64,000 nt of DNA from Marivirga tractuosa DSM 4126 (lineage in GTDB: Bacteria; Bacteroidota; Bacteroidia; Cytophagales; Cyclobacteriaceae), in NCBI RefSeq assembly GCF_000183425.1, contig NC_014759.1, forward strand, positions 434,001 through 498,000, written 5' to 3'. The position numbers and the translations under genes are program-made. Of this stretch, positions 48,070-58,848 are shown piece by piece (the first letter of the stretch is position 1; the number at the start of each line of letters is the position of its first letter). The notes beneath the pieces are model-generated. The model was not told where the DNA came from. It ran no database searches and worked only from the letters and a program-made list of their open reading frames with translations.

Positions 48070-50160
48070 TTATAAAGACAATATAGTATATTCCACTCGT
48101 CTATTCTGCCTTCGCTCTATTTCTGTTCTACCGTCCGTTACAGGTTTGGACGAGCCATAGCCTTTGGTTTTAATTCTTTTCTGGTCTATACCAGCTTGCA
48201 CTATATAAGCTTTCACAGCATCCGCTCTATCTTGTGATAAAATCCTGTTTAGCCTTGGGGAACCTCTTCGCTCGGTATGCCCTCCAATTTCTATTTGCAT
48301 AGTTTCGGAAGATCGCAAAAGCCTTATTAATCGGTCCAATTCAGGATGTGAGGCTTCTAGAATTTCATAGCTCCCTTGCGCAAAATAAACATTATTCAAA
48401 CTAATAAAGGAACCTTCGCTTAGTGGACTCAAATAGATGTCTCGGGTAATTTCTTGATAATTCTCTTTCTGCTGCAAATCGATATTGTCATGGGTCGACA
48501 AATAACCCTCTAGCTGCGTATAATAGCCATAGTGTTTACCGTAGGGAAGAATGATTTGGTAGGTCCCATCGCTTGCTTTAGACTTTACGGCATTCTGTCT
48601 TCTTCCTTTCGGTAAAGATTCAAAATAGAGCTGTGCATGTAAAGGTTCTTTTGTGGCAGCATCTAACACCTTGCCTTTTATCAAAACTACAGGATCGGGT
48701 TTTAGCGCCTCGGGTAGTTTTATTCTGTAGATATCTATTTGAGCAAGGCTATCGTTAGCGGACACCATATAAGCCCAGTTTCCATGGGCTGGAATCGTAA
48801 AATAACCGTCCCATTTCGGGGTGTTAATTTCAGAACCTAAATTAATGGGCTCACTCCATTCATATCCTTCATCATCCAACATACGGCTCATAAAGATATC
48901 CATATCACCATAACCAGAATGGCCTTCACTAGAGAAATAGAGTGTTTTACCATCAGCCGCTAGAAAGGGCGTAATTTCATTTCCGAAGCTGTTGACTACT
49001 TTCCCTAAAGTTCTGGCTCCTGACCAACTTTTGCTGTAGGATCTTGCAGTAGATAGGTATAAGTCGTTCATTCCCTCATTATATCCGGTTTTTATGGATA
49101 ATATCATGCTTTTACCTGTGGCCGAAAGACTCGTTTCAGCAGAATTAGAAGAATTCATATAACTAGATATTTCAATTTTTTCAGGAATAGACCACTGTTC
49201 ACCATCCCAATTCGATACAGAAAAGCCATTATGAGTCAAGCTTAAGCCATCTTCGGAATACGTATTGCTCAAAATCAGTTTTGCATTATCTGTTGAAATC
49301 CCCATCACATTATTGTGACCTGGCGTATTCAATGGAAATCCCAACTTTATCGGAGCTCCCCATTGCTCATCTTCTAAGGTAGATTTCCAGATTTCTTGTG
49401 CCTTCTCATCGTGTTCATTTCGGGTAAAGTACAAGCTTTTTCCATCATAAGAGACAATAGGCACTAATTCCTCAGCCTCGGTATTGATCGGATAGGGTAG
49501 TTTTTCTTTGATTATTTGCGACTGATCTGCCAATTCATTAATGGCAGGCTTATCCTGTAATACATGAAAATAATCCACGCTTATGCCAATATCTCCATTT
49601 AAAACGGTACCAATTCTACCTCCTTGAAAATGGACCTTACTAGCTCGTATTTCCGCTACTTCCTTCTCATTAATGCTGAAAAAGATCGTTTCCTTTCGCT
49701 TATGAATCGTCAGTTTATTGTTTTGGCCTTTGCCTCGAATGGCAGCAGACTTTCGCCAGGCTGTGAATTCCTTGATTCTAGAACCCCAGCTTGAATAAAT
49801 CTTAAAGCTTCCTGATGAATTAATGATAAAAGAGAAGGTTGATCTGCTCTCAAAATGAGAACCCCAATGGATGCCGTAAGAACCCGTATTTCCACCTTTT
49901 GTCTGCTTTACTAAGGCTTCGATTTTGTAGTCTGTCTTAGGATTCATGGCGATATGCGAATAGATCGCAAACCTCTCGGTGTGACCAGATCTATCGATAT
50001 GTATGTGCTGACCATCATAATCAAAGCGGGCATTGCTATCGCTTTTGAACTGCCATAAATAAGAGGGAGATGTAAAATCTTCTTGCATCAAATAGTTCGT
50101 TTGTGCAGACAGGAAAAGGGGAGAAGTGCAGCATAAAAATAGCAGCAAAAAGTACTTCAT
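48070..50160 (-). CDS. OmpA-family envelope protein with PD40 repeats and N-terminal lectin-like domain
   Basis: 696 residues with signal peptide (MKYFLLLFLCCTSPLFLSAQ). Residues 25-200 look like a concanavalin-like jelly roll (YDGQHIHIDRSGHTERFAIY, NGDIGISVDYFHVL). Residues 225-485 carry PD40 blades (ADGKTLYFSSEGHSGYGDMD). Then a carboxypeptidase-regulatory-like domain (about 490-570) and a C-terminal OmpA peptidoglycan-binding domain (about 590-690; IEIGGHTERRGSPRLNRILS, RIKTKGYGSSKPV). This resembles PorE-type proteins of T9SS or gliding loci but has a lectin-like front instead of TPRs. Single gene. Confidence 0.88.
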   Translation of the reverse strand: MKYFLLLFLCCTSPLFLSAQTNYLMQEDFTSPSYLWQFKSDSNARFDYDGQHIHIDRSGHTERFAIYSHIAMNPKTDYKIEALVKQTKGGNTGSYGIHWGSHFESRSTFSFIINSSGSFKIYSSWGSRIKEFTAWRKSAAIRGKGQNNKLTIHKRKETIFFSINEKEVAEIRASKVHFQGGRIGTVLNGDIGISVDYFHVLQDKPAINELADQSQIIKEKLPYPINTEAEELVPIVSYDGKSLYFTRNEHDEKAQEIWKSTLEDEQWGAPIKLGFPLNTPGHNNVMGISTDNAKLILSNTYSEDGLSLTHNGFSVSNWDGEQWSIPEKIEISSYMNSSNSAETSLSATGKSMILSIKTGYNEGMNDLYLSTARSYSKSWSGARTLGKVVNSFGNEITPFLAADGKTLYFSSEGHSGYGDMDIFMSRMLDDEGYEWSEPINLGSEINTPKWDGYFTIPAHGNWAYMVSANDSLAQIDIYRIKLPEALKPDPVVLIKGKVLDAATKEPLHAQLYFESLPKGRRQNAVKSKASDGTYQIILPYGKHYGYYTQLEGYLSTHDNIDLQQKENYQEITRDIYLSPLSEGSFISLNNVYFAQGSYEILEASHPELDRLIRLLRSSETMQIEIGGHTERRGSPRLNRILSQDRADAVKAYIVQAGIDQKRIKTKGYGSSKPVTDGRTEIERRQNRRVEYTILSL

Positions 50161-50494
50161 ACGTTTATTTCAGTTCAATTAGCGCGCTAAACTAATAGAA
50201 AGTCGTTAATTATACCAAATTCAAAACAAAAGGAATTACCACCTCGAATTACTAAAGGAAAAGGAATATATCTAAAGTGTTGAGTGAATAGGGTTGTGAT
50301 ACTTCTCTCAATCCTCCCTAGCATTCAAACCTCTAAAATACACATAACTTTGGAACAATTTTCCAATACAATGACAGTACTGTAAGCATATAATATTTAT
50401 ATTCGGTTTCTTGATTTTAAAAATCTATTCTATTTATGGTCAAGTTATATAAGTCTATTTATATAAGTAGTAAATCATTAAAAGACAGTTGAAG
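50161..50494. other. Intergenic region with one copy of a 23-bp direct repeat
   Basis: A/T-rich, holding the divergent promoters of the OmpA-family and DUF429 genes. 50296-50318 (GTGATACTTCTCTCAATCC then TCCC) recurs at 51999-52021 with one mismatch. Nothing else recognised. Confidence 0.5.
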
Positions 50495-51445
50495 ATGGAT
50501 AAAGTACTATGCATAGGATTAGATATTGCTTGGTTTGGAGGTTCCAAAAATAATAAGGCTTCGAAATATGATTGCTTGGTGTCACTAATTCATGATCCAA
50601 AAGCAAACTCTGTCCAATTTAACGAACCAATAAGGGTCTCACTTCATGATAAAGACTTGAATAAAGATAGAGATCCTAGTGCTCAATTGTTATCAAAATC
50701 AATCGATGAATTGCTTGAGGAGCATTCAGATTGGTCCAAAGTAATATTTGCTATTGATGCTCCTTTACAGGCAACTGAAAGAAGTTTAGGAGATAGGAAA
50801 GCAAAAGTTACAAAAGGATCCATTCAAAGAAGGGCATGCGAAAACCATCTTAGTAAGAAGCGAAAGTGCATCGATAAAGGCCAAGAGGATATCGCTGGCT
50901 GGATGTTTAGAATACAAGCAGGCGCACCCCTTGCCCCAAGGGTTAAAAATCTACTGACACATTTAGAATCAGTTGGATTCTCTATTTGGGACGAGCAGCA
51001 TTGTAATTCAGACAAGTTGGTAATTGAGTGTTTTCCCGCTGAGGTAATTTGGTTTACAAAGCGTTCCGGAGGTTACAAAGACAAGGACCAGAATAGCGGG
51101 AAAGTAAAAGCTTATAAAAAAAAGGAAAAGAGACCGCTTTCGGAAGAAGAATTCAAAGACAGGGTACATCATGTCTTGGATGATGTAGCGCCTTTTAGCG
51201 GTATAGGGAATTCATGGAATAAGGTAGTAGACAACACGATTAATTGGATGATTAAGGATAAAACATGGCAAACGGAGAAAGGCTTTCGGTCAGGTAAAAT
51301 GCTAGACGATGTTGTTGATTCCTGTCTCTGTTTGGCTTCAGCTGTTAGTTATTCGGCCAATAACTTTCATGTTTGGCAGGATCGTACAGATAAATCCGAT
51401 GGACATATCATTGGTCCTGGTAAGTTAAACTCCTTACCTCAGTAA
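50495..51445 (+). CDS. DUF429 domain protein
   Basis: 316 residues from ATG 50495; an in-frame TTG at 50489 is less likely. The start LCIGLDIAWFGGSKNNKASK and the motifs FAIDAPLQAT and RRACENHLSK match DUF429, predicted to have an RNase H-like nuclease fold (Asp in GLDIAW and AIDAP). Biochemical function is not established. A second part with CFPAEVIWFTKRSG and the Asp-rich LDDVVDSCLCLASAV completes the fold. It lies between two copies of a 23-bp direct repeat, just before the restriction-modification genes. Confidence 0.75.
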   Translation: MDKVLCIGLDIAWFGGSKNNKASKYDCLVSLIHDPKANSVQFNEPIRVSLHDKDLNKDRDPSAQLLSKSIDELLEEHSDWSKVIFAIDAPLQATERSLGDRKAKVTKGSIQRRACENHLSKKRKCIDKGQEDIAGWMFRIQAGAPLAPRVKNLLTHLESVGFSIWDEQHCNSDKLVIECFPAEVIWFTKRSGGYKDKDQNSGKVKAYKKKEKRPLSEEEFKDRVHHVLDDVAPFSGIGNSWNKVVDNTINWMIKDKTWQTEKGFRSGKMLDDVVDSCLCLASAVSYSANNFHVWQDRTDKSDGHIIGPGKLNSLPQ

Positions 51446-51574: not shown

Positions 51575-51850
51575 ATGAAAATGAAAAAAGAGGACCCTTT
51601 TTTAGACAATGCAGATGAATGGAAAAATCAAGCCTCATTTGGCAGTATTAGTATTATCACCTATGAAGAACCTTATCTTCCTGATTATGCAAATAGAATT
51701 AAACATGAAATAGATATAACATGTCATGGGCTAAGTAAAGAAGAATTTGATCAATGGAAATCCGAGATTGTTAGACATCATGGGCTTATCGGAGATGCTG
51801 ATAATAAATTGATTTTTACTTCTTTTTCTGAAGAACTAAAAAATATTTAA
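51575..51850 (+). CDS. Small protein of unknown function
   Basis: 91 residues, acidic, with a central helix (LSKEEFDQWKSEIVRHHG). No family recognised. ATG at 51575, a second ATG at 51581. Lies between DUF429 and the methyltransferase gene and before the second direct-repeat copy. Confidence 0.55.
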   Translation: MKMKKEDPFLDNADEWKNQASFGSISIITYEEPYLPDYANRIKHEIDITCHGLSKEEFDQWKSEIVRHHGLIGDADNKLIFTSFSEELKNI

Positions 51851-52201
51851 AATTTTGTACCGAGCTATAATTATAATGATCATTCGTAATTTTACTTCCC
51901 AGTAAGGAAATTGTAGGAACTAACCTCTTTTTTGAACATGTAATTTGAATGTATTTGCTCATATATGACAGTATCAAATGAGTCGGTGCAGTAGGGGAGT
52001 GATACTTCTCTTAATCCTCCCAACCACAAAGTGTTTTCTTAGATTCTTTAGCATCGATTAAGGTCACTTTTACCACCTTTATCCAAAAAAATTAAAAACA
52101 TTAATCAATTTTAATTAATTGGTTCAAAAATTATTGGCTTTTCTTGCATATATTAATATTGTCCGTAATTTTGTCCGTGTCCGTAAAAATGTCCGTATAA
52201 A
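51851..52201. other. Intergenic region before the methyltransferase gene
   Basis: Holds the second copy of the 23-bp direct repeat (51999-52021) and, next to the start codon, the promoter with four GTCCGT repeats described separately. The rest is A/T-rich with no gene seen. Confidence 0.6.
52143..52196 (+). promoter_or_regulatory. Methyltransferase promoter overlapped by four GTCCGT repeats (candidate arm-type operator)
   Basis: GTCCGT occurs at 52161, 52173, 52179 and 52191, that is with spacings of 12, 6 and 12 bp, all on the + strand and all within 41 bp of the ATG. CTTG at 52143-52146 and TAATTTTG at 52166-52173, 19 bp apart, fit the Bacteroidota -33/-7 promoter. The -7 box lies between and over repeats 1 and 2. 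The protein encoded just downstream begins with an integrase-type arm DNA-binding domain, which makes these repeats its probable binding sites. Confidence 0.65.
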
Positions 52202-54409
52202 ATGGCTTCAATAAATTTATACCTTGATTCAGCAGATAAAAAGGGATTATCTCCAATACATTTAAGAATTAATAATGGAGGGAATCAAGTTAAAGTTTCT
52301 ACAGGTGAAAAGATTCAAGCAGAATGTTTTGATAAAACAACACAGACTATCACCGATGAGGTTGAAAATGCCACTGCAATTAATTATTATCTGAAATATT
52401 TAAAAGATAGAGCTGAAGAAATATTCTCAAAATCAGTTAAAAAGACTTATACAAATAAGGAAATAAAAGAAATTCTCCACAAACATATTGAAGCTTATAA
52501 GGAAGACAATACAGTAAATATGGTGAAGGAACAACTTCCGATATATGGTAAGCAATTTACTTTTGTTGACTTCTTTGCTGGTGCTGGTGGTTTTAGTGAA
52601 GGTTTTTTGCAGGCTGAACACAATAATAAATTCTTTAATTTTTTATTGGCTAGTGATATTAATGAGAATTGCGAATTAACGCATTTAGTAAGATACAATC
52701 ACCAATTGGGGTTAGACGCTGAATTTATTAAGCAAGATATAACAGAACCTGATTTTGTCGATAATTTACTAAGTAAACTGGGAGATAAAAACGTAGATGT
52801 TGTTTGTGGGGGACCTCCATGTCAAAGTTTTAGTTTGGCAGGTAAGCGCAAAAAATTTGATAGAAAAGATGACCTGTTTTCAAATTATTTAAATGTCATA
52901 AAAATTCTTCGTCCTAAGTATTTTGTAATGGAGAATGTGAAGGGAATACTGACTAAAGAGGAAGGGAAGATAAAGTCGATGATTCTCCGGGAAATTAGAT
53001 CAATATTAGATATTAATGAACTCCCAAGTCTAATTCATTTTATTAAAAAATTAAAGAGAACCTCTCCACACCAAAGCTTTATCTTAGATTGTCTATCCAG
53101 AAGAATTGATTTTGAAGCTAAAAGCGAGAAAGAGTTAGATGATGCAAAAGAACAATATATCAAGGCTGTTGAATCTAAGTTTCGCACTTTAACTCCCAAA
53201 ATTATTGATTACAAAACCAGTAAAACTAATTCAGATATTAGTACCATCAGGCATGGTTTGAATATGTTAATCAGGAGTAAAGAATTAGCTAAGCTCAAAA
53301 AAGATATCATAAGAGAAAAGGATGTAAATTATTTGGATAATGACCTTTTTGTTGATCATTTCAATGAGTTCGTTGGATTTTTAGAACCAGAAACGATTAT
53401 TAAAAATATTAATAAAGCATTTGATAATCTTTCTATAAGTCAGGAGTTTGAAAATGAGTATATTGATATTATTGAAGCATTAAGAATCTATATTGCAAAC
53501 TTTGATGAGTGTATTTCCCGAATTGAATCAAATTGTCAAGAAAAGGATTTAAGTTCATTATCAGAAATCATGGAGAGCATTAGGCTCTACAGAATTGAAG
53601 ACGCTTATGTTGCTAATTCCTCAAATTATGGAGTGCCTCAAAATCGAGAAAGGGTATTGTTCATAGGATGCCGTAAAGATCAAGAACTAATAAAAGAAGT
53701 ACCTGCAACTGTCAGTGCTAATGAAAAGGTTACAATATTTGAAGCATTGCATGATTTAGATTTCATTGGTAATGATCAAGATATAAAGCGTTATGAGCAT
53801 GTTGATTTAGAGATGTATTACAATGGTACTTCTGATAAGATGAAATCTTTAATAAAACAACGTGATATTAATGGTAAGCCATCTAAAAAAGGAATTTCAT
53901 ATTCCGATTGGAGTAGAAAAGGACGATTAAATGGAAGATTTCCGATGACAAAAGCATTTTATGTCAAAAGTGAAGAAGCTTTAAATGAAGGTAAAAGGGA
54001 TTTCAATGAATTAAATAACCATAGAACAAGCAAGCAAAATGACGATGTTGTAAAACGTCTTCAAATCATAATTGAAGCCGGTAGCTATAAGCTTGCTAAA
54101 GAACGTTTAGAAAAAGAAGGAGTCGGATCTCAAAAGCGAAACTACAATTTATTGAAGCCAGATGAACAGAGTTCAACTATAATGACGATCCCTGACGATT
54201 ACGTACATTATAGGGCTCCACGGGCTTTAACAGTTCGAGAAATGGCTCGACTTCAGTCTTTTGATGATACTTTTGTATTTCAAGGTAAACGTTCTACTGG
54301 AGGAAATAATCGTAAAAATGAGGTGCCTCAATATACATTGGTGGGAAATGCTGTTCCTCCTTTAATGGCACGAGCGATAGGGGTGGAAATCCTTAAAAAT
54401 ATTAAGTAA
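52202..54409 (+). CDS. Cytosine-5 DNA methyltransferase fused to an integrase-type arm DNA-binding domain
   Basis: 735 residues. Residues 1-~90 (INLYLDSADKKGLSPIHLRI, STGEKIQAECFDK, ATAINYYLKYLKD) match the N-terminal arm-binding domain of Bacteroidota tyrosine recombinases (Arm-DNA-bind_5 pattern). Methyltransferase motifs follow: I FVDFFAGAGGFSEGF (120-134), IV GGPPCQSFS with the catalytic Cys near 207, VI ENVKG (244), VIII VPQNRERVLFIG (about 478), and X GNAVPP (715). An unusual ~220-residue, mainly helical insert lies between VI and VIII. It should make 5-methylcytosine and protect against the endonuclease encoded convergently 5 bp away. Confidence 0.9.
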   Translation: MASINLYLDSADKKGLSPIHLRINNGGNQVKVSTGEKIQAECFDKTTQTITDEVENATAINYYLKYLKDRAEEIFSKSVKKTYTNKEIKEILHKHIEAYKEDNTVNMVKEQLPIYGKQFTFVDFFAGAGGFSEGFLQAEHNNKFFNFLLASDINENCELTHLVRYNHQLGLDAEFIKQDITEPDFVDNLLSKLGDKNVDVVCGGPPCQSFSLAGKRKKFDRKDDLFSNYLNVIKILRPKYFVMENVKGILTKEEGKIKSMILREIRSILDINELPSLIHFIKKLKRTSPHQSFILDCLSRRIDFEAKSEKELDDAKEQYIKAVESKFRTLTPKIIDYKTSKTNSDISTIRHGLNMLIRSKELAKLKKDIIREKDVNYLDNDLFVDHFNEFVGFLEPETIIKNINKAFDNLSISQEFENEYIDIIEALRIYIANFDECISRIESNCQEKDLSSLSEIMESIRLYRIEDAYVANSSNYGVPQNRERVLFIGCRKDQELIKEVPATVSANEKVTIFEALHDLDFIGNDQDIKRYEHVDLEMYYNGTSDKMKSLIKQRDINGKPSKKGISYSDWSRKGRLNGRFPMTKAFYVKSEEALNEGKRDFNELNNHRTSKQNDDVVKRLQIIIEAGSYKLAKERLEKEGVGSQKRNYNLLKPDEQSSTIMTIPDDYVHYRAPRALTVREMARLQSFDDTFVFQGKRSTGGNNRKNEVPQYTLVGNAVPPLMARAIGVEILKNIK

Positions 54410-54414
54410 ACAAA

Positions 54415-55359
54415 CTACAATATATCAAAATATCTGAGATCATTGGATAAACTTTGAATTGCATTATTCAATTGTGACCGTTGATTAGTACCGTGGTAAG
54501 CATTGCGAAAATTATTATTAAATATTTCCTTAAGAGAACTTGCTATACCACTTTTGGATGGATAACCCCAATAATTTCCACCTGTAAGATTTCTTACTCT
54601 ATTTACAGCGGTAGAATTCTGTTTATAATTATCCAAAGAGTTAGTAGGAACAGTACAAAAAGAATAACTGAATCTTGATAAATCATGAATTGTAAATCCA
54701 TTTTTGCCTACAGAAATTGACGTGCTTGCAAAAGCGGTAGCTTCATATATCATACTCCATAGCATTGGAATCTGCGAATTATCGTTCCAGTTTGTTTTAC
54801 ATTGAATAATACCAATTTCAAAATCATCAAAATGAAGCTCAGCAAGCCTATTAAGTATTTTTTTGCAATTATAATTACCTCGGCTTAGATTCGGAATTAC
54901 GTTTCCTCTTTGGTCATGAATTGTTAAATTGTCTTTATCATTAGTAAATTCTAATCTATTTGGAAATACAACTACTGTTATATCTGATTCCGTATTACTT
55001 TTAAAATTACCATAATTGACAGATATAGAATCTCTTAATGGGTCAGGTAAATCACTTATTTTTCGTAGAGCAACAGCATTACTTCCCACTAGACAAATAT
55101 TAAGATACCAACAAATTAATCCTTCCCAACCATATCCACCACCTGAAACTTCGCTCTGTGATCTTCCAGAGGATCCTGTTGTTGCAAATATTGAAGATAG
55201 ATTGTCTCCAATATTTAAAATATCAGATCCCTGTGGAGTATTTCCGATATGGTTTTGAATTTCGCTTTTCCAAATTGGCCATCCATTCCTAAAAGCAGAC
55301 AATTCAAAACAGCTTTCAACAGATTGTTTTCTTAAATATTCAGGTATTGAATTATACAT
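54415..55359 (-). CDS. Candidate type II restriction endonuclease (PD-(D/E)xK-like)
   Basis: 314 residues, no signal or membrane helix. Residues that could form a PD-(D/E)xK-type site are E79 (GWEGLICWYLN), D126 (ESDITVVVFP) and Q186-x-K188 (GIIQCKTNWND); a Gln-x-Lys variant is known in some nucleases. No named restriction enzyme is recognised. The assignment rests mainly on context: tail-to-tail with a cytosine-5 methyltransferase, 5 bp between stops. Own promoter likely, because 184 bp separate it from the helicase gene; TATACTTG on the minus strand lies just upstream. Confidence 0.6.
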   Translation of the reverse strand: MYNSIPEYLRKQSVESCFELSAFRNGWPIWKSEIQNHIGNTPQGSDILNIGDNLSSIFATTGSSGRSQSEVSGGGYGWEGLICWYLNICLVGSNAVALRKISDLPDPLRDSISVNYGNFKSNTESDITVVVFPNRLEFTNDKDNLTIHDQRGNVIPNLSRGNYNCKKILNRLAELHFDDFEIGIIQCKTNWNDNSQIPMLWSMIYEATAFASTSISVGKNGFTIHDLSRFSYSFCTVPTNSLDNYKQNSTAVNRVRNLTGGNYWGYPSKSGIASSLKEIFNNNFRNAYHGTNQRSQLNNAIQSLSNDLRYFDIL

Positions 55360-55543
55360 TGGATTAGATTTTTTTCTAGAATAGAATGATTGTTGTGCAA
55401 GTATAAGTTAAAATATTTTTCCAAAAAAACTATGTTATTCTATACAATGGTTATTTTACTACTCTAAATGAAGATAATTAACTATATACCTTTAGAAGCT
55501 GAAACCAGTCTATTATAAACATCAACCATCTAAACATATTTTT

Positions 55544-58138
55544 TTAGACATCTAAATATTTGGACGCTACGTTATCTTTAAAATGATTTATCAGAGACAT
55601 CATATCTAAATGATTTTTCTCCAGTATATTAACAGCTTCGGACCTCCAAGAGAGATCACCAGCCTCCACAAAGGATTTCCTCATTTCCCTCAAAATACTT
55701 AATGCATTATGCGCCCATTTTTTGAATTCTTTCAGTTCCCAGTAAGAAAAATTCTTCGTGAAGGATTCTCCTCCGATGGAGACTTTCTTAACGGGAGTAA
55801 TTAAAACTGAAATTATTATAGCAGTATCATCTAAATCTGTATTTTTAATAATCCAATCTGGATGGCTACTAACTTGTCTAGCTTTGTTAGCGGAAAGTGC
55901 TGAATTTTCGTCAGCGCCTGCATGATCTTCAAATACAATACATAGGTTTTCTATTATCCAGTATGGATCAGGTGAAGCATCATTTTCTACCTTGTAAGAA
56001 TCAAAACCTAGGATATTTCCTAATTCTTTATGTGCATTTTCGAAAGTCTGGTTAGATTCTAATCCTGATAATATTTCACTCTCTTTCTGTGCATATTTAC
56101 GGTCATGAAGTGTACCTAACCGCACAAAGTTCTTTTCTATATTCTCTATCTGATTTAAGATTATATCTTTATCTTCATACTCTTCTACGACTTTTGTAGG
56201 TTGATATTTTGATAAATTTACGAGCCAAGGAATACCAGTTGTAGCTTTCTTTGACGTAGAATAATGATCTCTAGCTTTTTGCATATAAGATTCATTTCCT
56301 GAGCTATATAATGCATTGAAATATGCACAATTTCCACCTAAATAATGCCACAATGCTCGGTAACCTTTCAATTCGTCTGATAATAGCTTACCAATCACTT
56401 TTTCGGAATAATATAGTGCATCTGTATAATCACTTTTCCACATTGCTTTTTGGTAATTTATCTCATCAGAAACAACCTCTTGTAATTCAGCCATTGCTGG
56501 GAAATTCTTTTGTATTATATCTGATCTATCTTTAATTATCTTTTTATTTACCTTTTCCCATTGAGCATCATTTTTAAGAAAAATTTCGAAGTTTTCAATA
56601 AAATTATCAGCATCAGTGTCTATGGATTCTTTGATTCCAAATTTTAATTCTGACTGTAATTCAGGGTGTAAATAAGACCTCCTCTTTTGGCTGGAAAAAT
56701 AGTCTGGTAATTCAGAACCTGTAATAACAACTGCCGAATAGTCTTCCATTGACCTAGTGCATCTGCCTATAGCTTGTAGTACTCTAGTTTGAATTCGATC
56801 ATTAAACAATAAATTTGCGCCCATTTTAGACATTAAAAACTTTTCTTGAGCATTTGTTGCTTTGGGTAGTCCATTAACAAAAAGCAGTCTGCTACTATTT
56901 CCTGGAAAATCAATTCCATCATAGCGGTTTGCAACTACGACAACTGCATTATCTGATTCAATAAATTCACTTTTTGATTTCTCAATTTGAAGAGCATTAA
57001 AAGTGTGAAAGCCCAATTCTTTCTGTATCTCACTTTTGATTTCTTTTTGTATTCTATCATTTGGAACTAATATTACACTTCTTCCAGCCATTTTCATTAG
57101 TTTATGTCTCAAAATTTTATTTTGATTTTCACTTAATGACATTTCAGGAAACATAAAAAACCTTCTTCCTATACCTTGTTTTTCCCATCCTTCGGGAATA
57201 GGCAACCTCAATATCTTGTTTCTACCTGTAAGTCTTTCTAAATCGCCACCTTGACCCAAGGTCGCAGACATAAATATTCTTTGGTTAGCATTTTGAAATG
57301 GAAAATGAGACCATGTAGGGGGAATAAGAGGTCTAATTAAAATATCGGAAGTTGACACATATAATTGACAGGCATCCAAATGATCTTTTAGCATGCTCCA
57401 AGGATGAATAAGGTCTGTATCTCTAGTTTGTGCGTCCAAGACCGATGCTAATTCCTCTCTTATATCAAACAAATCAGGACCTGGTATTTTATCCACCCAA
57501 CTTAAATCATAGATACTATCACTTTCACCAATTAATCTAGCATGATTAGTAGCTTTCATTTTTGATTTTAAGATGCTAGAGATGCTACTATGTACTATTT
57601 TATGTTTGGGGTTTTCTCTCTCAATCTGCAGGGTCCACAGTGAAGCAATATAATTTTCCGCGGAATGTGCATCATCAAGAATAATGGTATCTGGGTCATT
57701 GAAAAAAGGATTCGAATTAAACAATGCACTGTATGTAGTAACAGCAACTTTTAACCCATTGTTATATTCAGCTCTTTTAGTTGGATCATACTTTGAACTT
57801 GGCCCTGTAAATCCATTAACGGTTAGTCCGTATTGCTCATTAGCTTGTTCCACGACTTGATTAACCAATTGAACAGTAGGGCAGATATAAACTACTTTTT
57901 CTGCATATTTTCTTTTTCTCCATTCAGCAATTAGCAAGCCAACAAGAGTTTTCCCACTTCCAGTCGGTAGCTGCAAAGCTACATCGGCTGCATTTGCTCC
58001 CGTTTTAGCATAGCTTTTCATTATTTCACCTTGATGATGAAGAACATCAGGTATTTTCCTTCTGGGTAAATCTCTTAATATTTGATCTGGACTATTAGGA
58101 ACATTTTCTTCAGACTCATCGAAACTTTTAAATGCCAT
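55544..58138 (-). CDS. XPD/DinG-like superfamily 2 helicase
   Basis: 864 residues. Walker A PTGSGKT (58-64), motif Ia VYICPTVQLVNQVV, motif II ILDDAH (DDAH at 155-158 in place of DEAH), motif III FMSATLGQGG, and motif VI QAIGRCTRSMEDYSAVVITG (HELICc2 type). No Cys set for an iron-sulphur cluster is visible in the usual XPD place. The C-terminal ~330 residues are helical, with TPR-like stretches (ALYYSEKVIGKLL, ALWHYLGGNCAYFNALY). Next to restriction-modification genes and on the endonuclease strand, so an auxiliary role in defence is likely but inferred. Confidence 0.8.
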   Translation of the reverse strand: MAFKSFDESEENVPNSPDQILRDLPRRKIPDVLHHQGEIMKSYAKTGANAADVALQLPTGSGKTLVGLLIAEWRKRKYAEKVVYICPTVQLVNQVVEQANEQYGLTVNGFTGPSSKYDPTKRAEYNNGLKVAVTTYSALFNSNPFFNDPDTIILDDAHSAENYIASLWTLQIERENPKHKIVHSSISSILKSKMKATNHARLIGESDSIYDLSWVDKIPGPDLFDIREELASVLDAQTRDTDLIHPWSMLKDHLDACQLYVSTSDILIRPLIPPTWSHFPFQNANQRIFMSATLGQGGDLERLTGRNKILRLPIPEGWEKQGIGRRFFMFPEMSLSENQNKILRHKLMKMAGRSVILVPNDRIQKEIKSEIQKELGFHTFNALQIEKSKSEFIESDNAVVVVANRYDGIDFPGNSSRLLFVNGLPKATNAQEKFLMSKMGANLLFNDRIQTRVLQAIGRCTRSMEDYSAVVITGSELPDYFSSQKRRSYLHPELQSELKFGIKESIDTDADNFIENFEIFLKNDAQWEKVNKKIIKDRSDIIQKNFPAMAELQEVVSDEINYQKAMWKSDYTDALYYSEKVIGKLLSDELKGYRALWHYLGGNCAYFNALYSSGNESYMQKARDHYSTSKKATTGIPWLVNLSKYQPTKVVEEYEDKDIILNQIENIEKNFVRLGTLHDRKYAQKESEILSGLESNQTFENAHKELGNILGFDSYKVENDASPDPYWIIENLCIVFEDHAGADENSALSANKARQVSSHPDWIIKNTDLDDTAIIISVLITPVKKVSIGGESFTKNFSYWELKEFKKWAHNALSILREMRKSFVEAGDLSWRSEAVNILEKNHLDMMSLINHFKDNVASKYLDV

Positions 58139-58315: not shown

Positions 58316-58848
58316 TTAGAAATCAGATTCACCACCTTTTTCATACTCAATCTTAAGTATTCGCCAGTTGAATTCACCGGCAGGAGTTTTTACCATGACT
58401 TCATCACCTGCTATTTGTTTAAAAGCGCCTGTGCCAGCGGTGAGTCCATCGAAATATAATCTTTATTGCCAATAAGCTCTTCGTATCCCACAATACGTAG
58501 TCGTTTTTTTAGTCCTCTATCAATGTTCTCAACTTCAACCCAAGCGCCAAACATTACTTTGCCTTCCTGATGAGGATGATAATGTATTACTTTAAAGTTA
58601 TCTATGCATTTGCGTAGGTAACGAATGCGACCATCAATTTCACGTAAACGTTTTTTATTGTAATGATAATCAGCATTTTCTGATCGGTCGCCTAAACTGG
58701 CGGCCCATGAAACCTTGGCCGTAACATCTGGACGTACAACTTTCCACAAATGATCATGTTCTTCGCGCAACTTTTGAAATCCTTCAGCAGTAATCATTTG
58801 CGAACGATTAAGTTTAGACAGTGTTGATTCTGGAATTTTACGTCTCAT
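58316..58848 (-). CDS. greB: Transcription elongation factor GreB, needs a -1 frameshift for full length
   Basis: The zero frame from 58848 gives 145 residues ending ALLNK and TAG at 58411. The -1 frame continues as QIAGDEVMVKTPAGEFNW to a stop at 58316-58318, which is exactly the missing GreB C-terminal strand (E. coli end: GDLAVVNTPAGEASWYV). The joined protein, about 176 residues, aligns without gap. GreB stimulates transcript cleavage in backtracked RNA polymerase; the coiled-coil tip acids are in LGDRSENADY. Sequence resembles gammaproteobacterial GreB more than expected for Bacteroidota, suggesting transfer. Either a 1-bp deletion (A run) or programmed frameshifting at T TTA AAC. Confidence 0.8.
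58417..58423 (-). other. Slippery heptamer T TTA AAC in greB
   Basis: On the minus strand the codons read GCG CTT TTA AAC AAA TAG. T-TTA-AAC is a classical X-XXY-YYZ -1 slippery site in the correct frame, two codons before the stop. A -1 slip yields CAA ATA GCA GGT and the conserved GreB tail. Confidence 0.55.

Follow-up and report, generated by a model that had tools for sequence, protein, structure and literature searches.

An integrase-type arm domain joined to a C5-cytosine methyltransferase, and a candidate operator of direct repeats over the promoter of its own gene

The gene at 52202–54409 on the plus strand of the window (the whole 64,000-nucleotide stretch of Marivirga tractuosa DNA analysed here) encodes a fusion of an integrase-type arm DNA-binding domain to a C5-cytosine methyltransferase. 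A conserved array of direct repeats lies over promoter-like sequence at the start of this gene, and the array accompanies the arm domain in every locus that we scored. Judged by its sequence and that of its relatives, the protein is very likely the modification enzyme of a type II restriction-modification system, one that regulates its own transcription through the arm domain.

Domains of the methyltransferase and its relatives

The reading frame is open over 735 amino acids. The original prediction placed an arm-type DNA-binding domain at the N-terminus, and the profiles agree: with the whole protein as query, residues 9–88 (52226–52465) match PF17293, Arm-DNA-bind_5, at E 6e-8 and 33.5 bits, above the gathering cut-off of 22.6, and residues 1–100 alone (52202–52501) give a significant match of 1.6e-10 and 41.8 bits. 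The further claim that a complete C5 methyltransferase has replaced the recombinase core was borne out by a PF00145 (DNA_methylase) match of 1.3e-52, split over two stretches, and by the lack of any PF00589 (Phage_integrase) match up to E 1 in the 735-amino acid protein, in which a Pfam scan to the same E value also found no helix-turn-helix family. The N-terminal part of the catalytic domain (residues 119–267; 52556–53002) covers PF00145 positions 1–132. The C-terminal part, which by alignment holds motif VIII, the target-recognition region and motifs IX–X (residues ~468–735; 53603–54406), corresponds to the second PF00145 piece at 53540–54394. Across an alignment of 40 rows, window included, FAGAGG, GGPPCQS, ENV, QNRERV and GNAVPP are invariant; we take these to be C5 methyltransferase motifs I, IV, VI, VIII and X, respectively. 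A more distant relative, L069, has FSGAGG instead of FAGAGG. By family and motifs the protein is thus a C5-cytosine methyltransferase, and DNA methylation is its predicted activity.

A structure model of the whole protein has a mean pLDDT of 69.6, with values of 71–88 over ten-residue blocks of residues 1–100. The arm part is modelled as strands at residues 3–8, 16–25 and 28–39 and a helix at 57–76, and the methyltransferase follows after a low-confidence linker (residues 102–114; 52505–52543; pLDDT below 50). PF17293 arm domains fold as a three-stranded sheet with a helix, and the predicted arm part has this expected fold, in line with the original prediction. Searches of the whole-protein model against the PDB gave coverage of residues 114–735. 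An insert of ~220 residues between motifs VI and VIII had been singled out as unusual; it is real, with ~210 residues between ENV and QNRER that are all-helical in the model (residues ~247–460; 52940–53581), but orthologues that lack the arm have it too. Their match spans the insert, running from query residues 105–120 to 735, so its presence does not depend on the arm domain.

The fusion of arm and methyltransferase is not unique to the window. We found 6,655 relatives among 7,999 scored candidates, and all 120 relatives listed carry both PF00145 and PF17293. In genome contigs, 548 stretches encode relatives, the best 80 of which were kept: 72 arm loci (L017–L088), in which the match begins at residue 1 or 2, and eight arm-less loci (L089–L096), in which it begins at residue 105–120. 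The 72 are the best-matching of the 548 relatives, and many of them are close kin. The arm-less proteins begin shortly before motif I, come from Bacteroidales and one Akkermansia, and are 49–52% identical to the window protein. At E 1e-60, the methyltransferase is present in 5 of 395 genomes of the phylum, the window's genome counted. The design is thus sporadic but widespread, and the arm domain itself has a mean column identity of 57% and a lowest identity to the window of 30%.

A single clade (SH-aLRT 100) unites the arm-less orthologues; the arm and the operator described below therefore differ together only once in the tree, and at 49–52% identity to the window protein these orthologues could have other reasons for a different control. 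Fisher values, which take no account of kinship, were set aside. A tree with outgroups L004, L097 and L098 (the three of seven intended loci that gave an ORF), from which L069 was left out because of its FSGAGG, put the arm-less clade beside 12 of 27 arm rows at an unstarred SH-aLRT of 93. This placement would mean that the arm was lost, a reading that is unsafe; the outgroups are very long branches. Fusion within a mobile element, the origin first proposed, found no backing, as searches of phage and plasmid records at E 1e-60 and 1e-40 returned no relative. Viral contigs gave no relative with the single protein as query; with the alignment as query they gave 57 loci, all with matches that begin no earlier than query residue 96. 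The fusion origin excepted, the original reading of the arm-methyltransferase is supported.

A direct-repeat array over the promoter

Immediately upstream of the methyltransferase gene, at 52160–52195 (+), we found an operator candidate composed of four GTCCG repeats at 52161, 52173, 52179 and 52191 (spacing 12-6-12). These are direct repeats on one strand, not an inverted repeat, and the full form of the element in arm loci is TGTCCGTAAATTTGTCCGTGTCCGTAAAAATGTCCG. We scored 76 arm loci, consisting of the window, the 72 from genome contigs and three from other genomes; two of the 76, L065 and L157, have identical upstream DNA. The pair GTCCG-N7-GTCCG occurs at most 120 nt upstream of the start in 76 of 76 arm loci, against 1 of 15,200 dinucleotide shuffles. 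Counting exact GTCCG copies, 26 loci have the spacing 12-6-12 and 33 have 12-18 (in which the third repeat is commonly GTACG); a further 12 show only the spacing of 12, and the last 5 have other subsets. GTCCG is absent from the same upstream stretch in all eight arm-less orthologues. All 76 arm loci and none of the 8 arm-less loci therefore have the direct-repeat element over the promoter, a distribution that agrees with the original suggestion of an arm domain in the self-regulatory role for which such enzymes usually have a helix-turn-helix extension. One further arm locus outside the 76, L158, also has the element, and two genomes of the window's genus hold three copies of it, two being by sequence the L017 and L020 loci again and the third, at a contig end in genome G401, being new. 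Three arm-less loci (L089, L092 and L093) share an upstream stretch around AAAGGTTTGGTC that may be another kind of control element.

The conservation is confined to the element. In 64 loci with dissimilar flanks it extends from −1 to +37, and positions −75 to −38 carry at most 0.11 bits. This alignment was anchored on repeats 1 and 2, whose letters are consequently high by construction; among the unanchored letters, the T and A after repeat 1 are conserved in 100% of loci, the TTT before repeat 2 in 95–98% and the fourth repeat in 82–93% per letter.

The array is laid over a promoter-like sequence. Between repeats 1 and 2 of the window lies a −7 box, TAATTTTG (52166–52173, +), which shares its last base with the first base of repeat 2 and fits TAnnTTTG, the Bacteroidota −7 consensus given in a source which notes that no −33 part was found in Flavobacterium johnsoniae (PMC7366714). 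Of the 76 arm loci, 72 have TAnnTTTG between their first two repeats, with the two n positions less conserved than the rest of the box. A −33-like TTG (52144–52146, +) stands 19 nt before the box in the window; 39 of the 76 loci have a TTG at a spacer of 18–20, compared with 3, 7 and 6 of 76 when the position is shifted upstream by 20, 30 and 40 nt. A protein on the repeats would cover both the −7 box and the presumed start. From its sequence, the array is a conserved candidate operator over the promoter of the arm loci's own gene. Generic searches for sigma-70-type promoters and intrinsic terminators in 51900–55600 returned 19 promoter-like sites, against 20.0 in shuffles, and 0 terminator-like sites, against 1.2. 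RNA-level control was set aside as a candidate: the leader (52172–52240) folds no better than shuffles (z 0.86), and 51800–52400 has no Rfam match up to E 1.

How often the pattern occurs elsewhere bears on which protein might bind it. The form TGTCCG-N5-TTGTCCG has no other copy in 1.2 Mb of methyltransferase loci, and the window's 4.5-Mb genome contains the exact pair once, at the methyltransferase gene. When two mismatches are allowed, that genome has 6 matches (one being the second repeat pair) against 11 for the pattern read backwards, so the looser matches are background. A search of the 395 genomes gave 16 exact matches, spread over 13 of them, against about 15 for the backward pattern; the genome-wide count is not above background, and only the positions of the matches speak for an operator. 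Four of the five methyltransferase-bearing genomes have an exact match just upstream of the methyltransferase, and the fifth, G045, has TGTCCGTAAAATTGTCCG there, one letter off the pair pattern. None of the other 12 exact matches has an arm-domain ORF in the 2.2–3.0 kb examined; the four at methyltransferases alone have one. Viral contigs hold seven exact pair matches, among which two pairs appear by eye to be near-copies; an ORF lies downstream of five of the seven, and none of these fits the arm, methyltransferase or nuclease profiles.

The repeats could in principle be read by a host factor, with the arm domain serving the methyltransferase as a second target-recognition or anchoring module. 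Arm domains do bind DNA, and a conserved site is open to any protein. We consider this extremely improbable, given that the exact pair occurs once in the window's genome, at the methyltransferase gene itself, that across 395 genomes arm-domain ORFs accompany only the four matches at methyltransferase genes, and that a partner nuclease of the same cluster is kept in seven of the eight arm-less loci (the contig of the eighth ends at the gene). Binding of the repeats by the methyltransferase's own arm domain is the reading that we carry forward.

Partner nucleases and the gene neighbourhood

A candidate restriction endonuclease of 314 amino acids, PfoI-like by its structure model, lies convergent to the methyltransferase at 54415–55359 (−), with 11% identity to PfoI in a structural alignment. 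The two stop codons are 5 nt apart, and no copy of the operator lies on the nuclease side. Elsewhere, both scanned members of the commonest partner-nuclease cluster carry PF15515 (MvaI/BcnI), so the known nucleases that the partners resemble are PfoI in the window and MvaI/BcnI in the commonest cluster. MvaI/BcnI and PfoI cut CC(N)GG-type palindromes. With a candidate restriction endonuclease gene adjoining the methyltransferase, the locus is by its sequence a probable type II restriction-modification system, and a common target of the two enzymes is predicted.

These nucleases also bear on whether the repeats could themselves be methylation targets of the enzyme, such that promoter methylation sets expression and the arm domain has another role. 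Promoter methylation is a described mode of control in restriction-modification systems (PMC3874152). Nevertheless, the partner nucleases resemble MvaI/BcnI (PF15515) and PfoI, a CCNGG site occurs within the 100 nt upstream in only 1 of 76 loci, and arm-less orthologues with a same-cluster nuclease do without the repeats, which together make methylation of the repeats a very unlikely explanation.

Beyond the nuclease, on the same strand and after a 184-nt gap, lies a DEAD/DinG-like helicase (55544–58138, −) that matches the PADLOC phage-defence candidate PDC-S28 at 366.9 bits. We treat it as context only; at E 1e-5, none of the 80 methyltransferase loci holds a relative of it. Two ORFs before the methyltransferase, a DUF429 protein (50489–51445, +) has a weak PADLOC match to PDC-S44 (23.6 bits). 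An OmpA/PD40 gene (48070–50160) and a GreA-like gene (58411–58848) flank these defence genes, and in five genomes of the same genus the two flanking genes share a contig at a distance of about 9 to 41 kb; the interval between them looks like a variable hotspot.

Some loci differ in what follows the methyltransferase. Two extra genes (~380 and ~358 amino acids) come directly after it in L018, L031, L032, L048, L057, L075 and L078, and in six of these seven the nuclease cluster is the third gene, after the two extra ones. In L057 the first extra gene has a weak GmrSD_N match under the cut-off and the second has no Pfam match. L034 (12215–14346) and L087 have a ~206-amino acid gene and a ~504-amino acid protein at the nuclease position. 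The smaller is weakly nucleotidyltransferase-like in L034, the larger is GmrSD_N in L034, and the ~504-amino acid protein of both loci clusters with the MvaI/BcnI-type nucleases.

Proposed self-regulation and the repeats of arm-domain integrases

We propose that the arm domain binds the GTCCG repeats in the way that integrase arm domains bind arm-type sites. With the −7 box enclosed by the repeats and the presumed start site also covered by them, the bound methyltransferase would block RNA polymerase. In a newly entered host, which starts with none of the methyltransferase, the enzyme would be made freely and the chromosome would be protected; once enough had accumulated, its own promoter would be shut. 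In loci with the nuclease gene downstream in the same direction, such a loop would set a ceiling on both enzymes. In the convergent arrangement of the window, only the methyltransferase would be under its direct control; the nuclease could rise indirectly, through reduced read-through into its gene.

By analogy with M.SsoII, other regulatory methyltransferases and IntS, the arm domain is most simply read as a means of negative autoregulation; of these, M.SsoII is described as repressing its own gene through its N-terminal region (PMC3978073) and IntS as repressing its own promoter via sites near the −10 and −35 boxes (PMC2951348). Alternatively, the bound methyltransferase might activate the promoter, or set the ratio of two promoters, instead of simply repressing. 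The element does lie at the promoter, and regulators of restriction-modification systems are reported to act both ways (PMC3874152). We regard activation of this kind as unlikely, since the repeats surround the −7 box and continue past it downstream, where a bound protein would hinder RNA polymerase, and the window has no second copy of the element for the nuclease gene.

The closest counterparts of the proposed repression are M.SsoII and M.Ecl18kI, which, like the window protein, carry an N-terminal DNA-binding region on a flexible linker ahead of a C5 methyltransferase, and which bind a regulatory site at their own promoter and lower their own transcription (PMC3978073; PMC12707154). Enzymes of the M.SsoII type use a helix-turn-helix and an inverted-repeat site, whereas the window has an integrase arm domain and a direct-repeat array and, unlike them, a large helical insert in its catalytic domain. 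IntS of KplE1 and P4 Int are integrases described as lowering their own promoter by sites near the −10 box, IntS binding at an attachment site with arm-type sites (PMC2951348); these are recombinases whose operator lies within the attachment site, whereas the window protein lacks the recombinase core. In RptR of type I restriction-modification islands, direct repeats overlap the −10 box and control the restriction-modification promoter, but RptR, unlike the window protein, is a separate small helical repressor with palindromic sites (PMC12255303).

An integrase arm domain and its arm-type repeats have probably become, together, the repressor and operator of a restriction-modification system. 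Methyltransferases of this design, which occur in many Bacteroidota families, would then be a new self-regulating class with a nearly fixed operator and an arm that diverges to ~30% identity. An incoming element whose integrase has related arm specificity could disturb the switch, and the arrival of mobile elements would in this way be linked to immunity. Reviews describe self-repressing methyltransferases with helix-turn-helix extensions (PMC3874152; PMC12707154), and a limited literature collection, represented mostly by titles and the openings of abstracts, contained nothing on the combination of an integrase arm domain with a methyltransferase. If the proposal is true, it is a second, unrelated solution to methyltransferase self-repression, built from a recombination domain. 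The operator is conserved over many Bacteroidota families and can be tested at once; the pair might serve as a repressor-operator for work in Bacteroidota and offers a way to read the arm-type sites of poorly known Bacteroidota integrases.

The arm domain is homologous to the N-terminal domain of the PF17293 tyrosine recombinases of Bacteroidota, in which the arm is followed by PF13102 and PF00589, compared with the methyltransferase in the window. An arm profile run against 198 genomes gave 98 rows, made up of four methyltransferases (frames of 737–754 amino acids) and 94 frames of 62–475 amino acids; the window's genome has four further arm-domain ORFs, three of which were scanned with Pfam. 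Of ten arm-domain ORFs scanned (these three and seven from the survey), all have PF17293 and PF13102 over the cut-off and nine have PF00589, one under the cut-off; the tenth is cut by a contig end. In 85 integrase upstream regions, repeats of at least 8 nt occur at spacings of 10, 11 and 12 in 14, 18 and 21 regions, compared with 0.25–0.35 expected from shuffles and a maximum of 4 regions, at spacing 22, for any other spacing. Spacings of 10–12 are found in 45 of 85 integrase regions against 11 of 268 controls (taken from upstream of other genes at the methyltransferase loci), and spacings of 13–15 in 3 of 85 against 19 of 268; some of the integrases are visibly kin, so these counts are not fully independent. 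The remaining 40 of the 85 have no repeat of at least 8 nt at spacing 10–12.

The methyltransferase operator thus appears, in sequence, to have the architecture of the integrase repeats, among which its spacing of 12 ranks first or second by count: short direct repeats about one helical turn apart next to an arm-domain gene, as in arm-type sites, which these are predicted to be. The letters of the repeats vary from integrase to integrase. Only 7 of 42 integrases have a TAnnTTTG box no more than 40 nt from their repeats, a scarcity that would suit attachment-site arms; in the methyltransferases the box sits inside the repeats. A loose GT..CC pattern in the integrase repeats (18 of 42) had no control and was set aside. 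Upstream repeats of PF17293 integrases could serve to predict arm-type sites, and direct repeats at 10–12 nt spacing are a frequent mark of the phylum's arm-domain integrases, such as L187, L199, L206 and L253.
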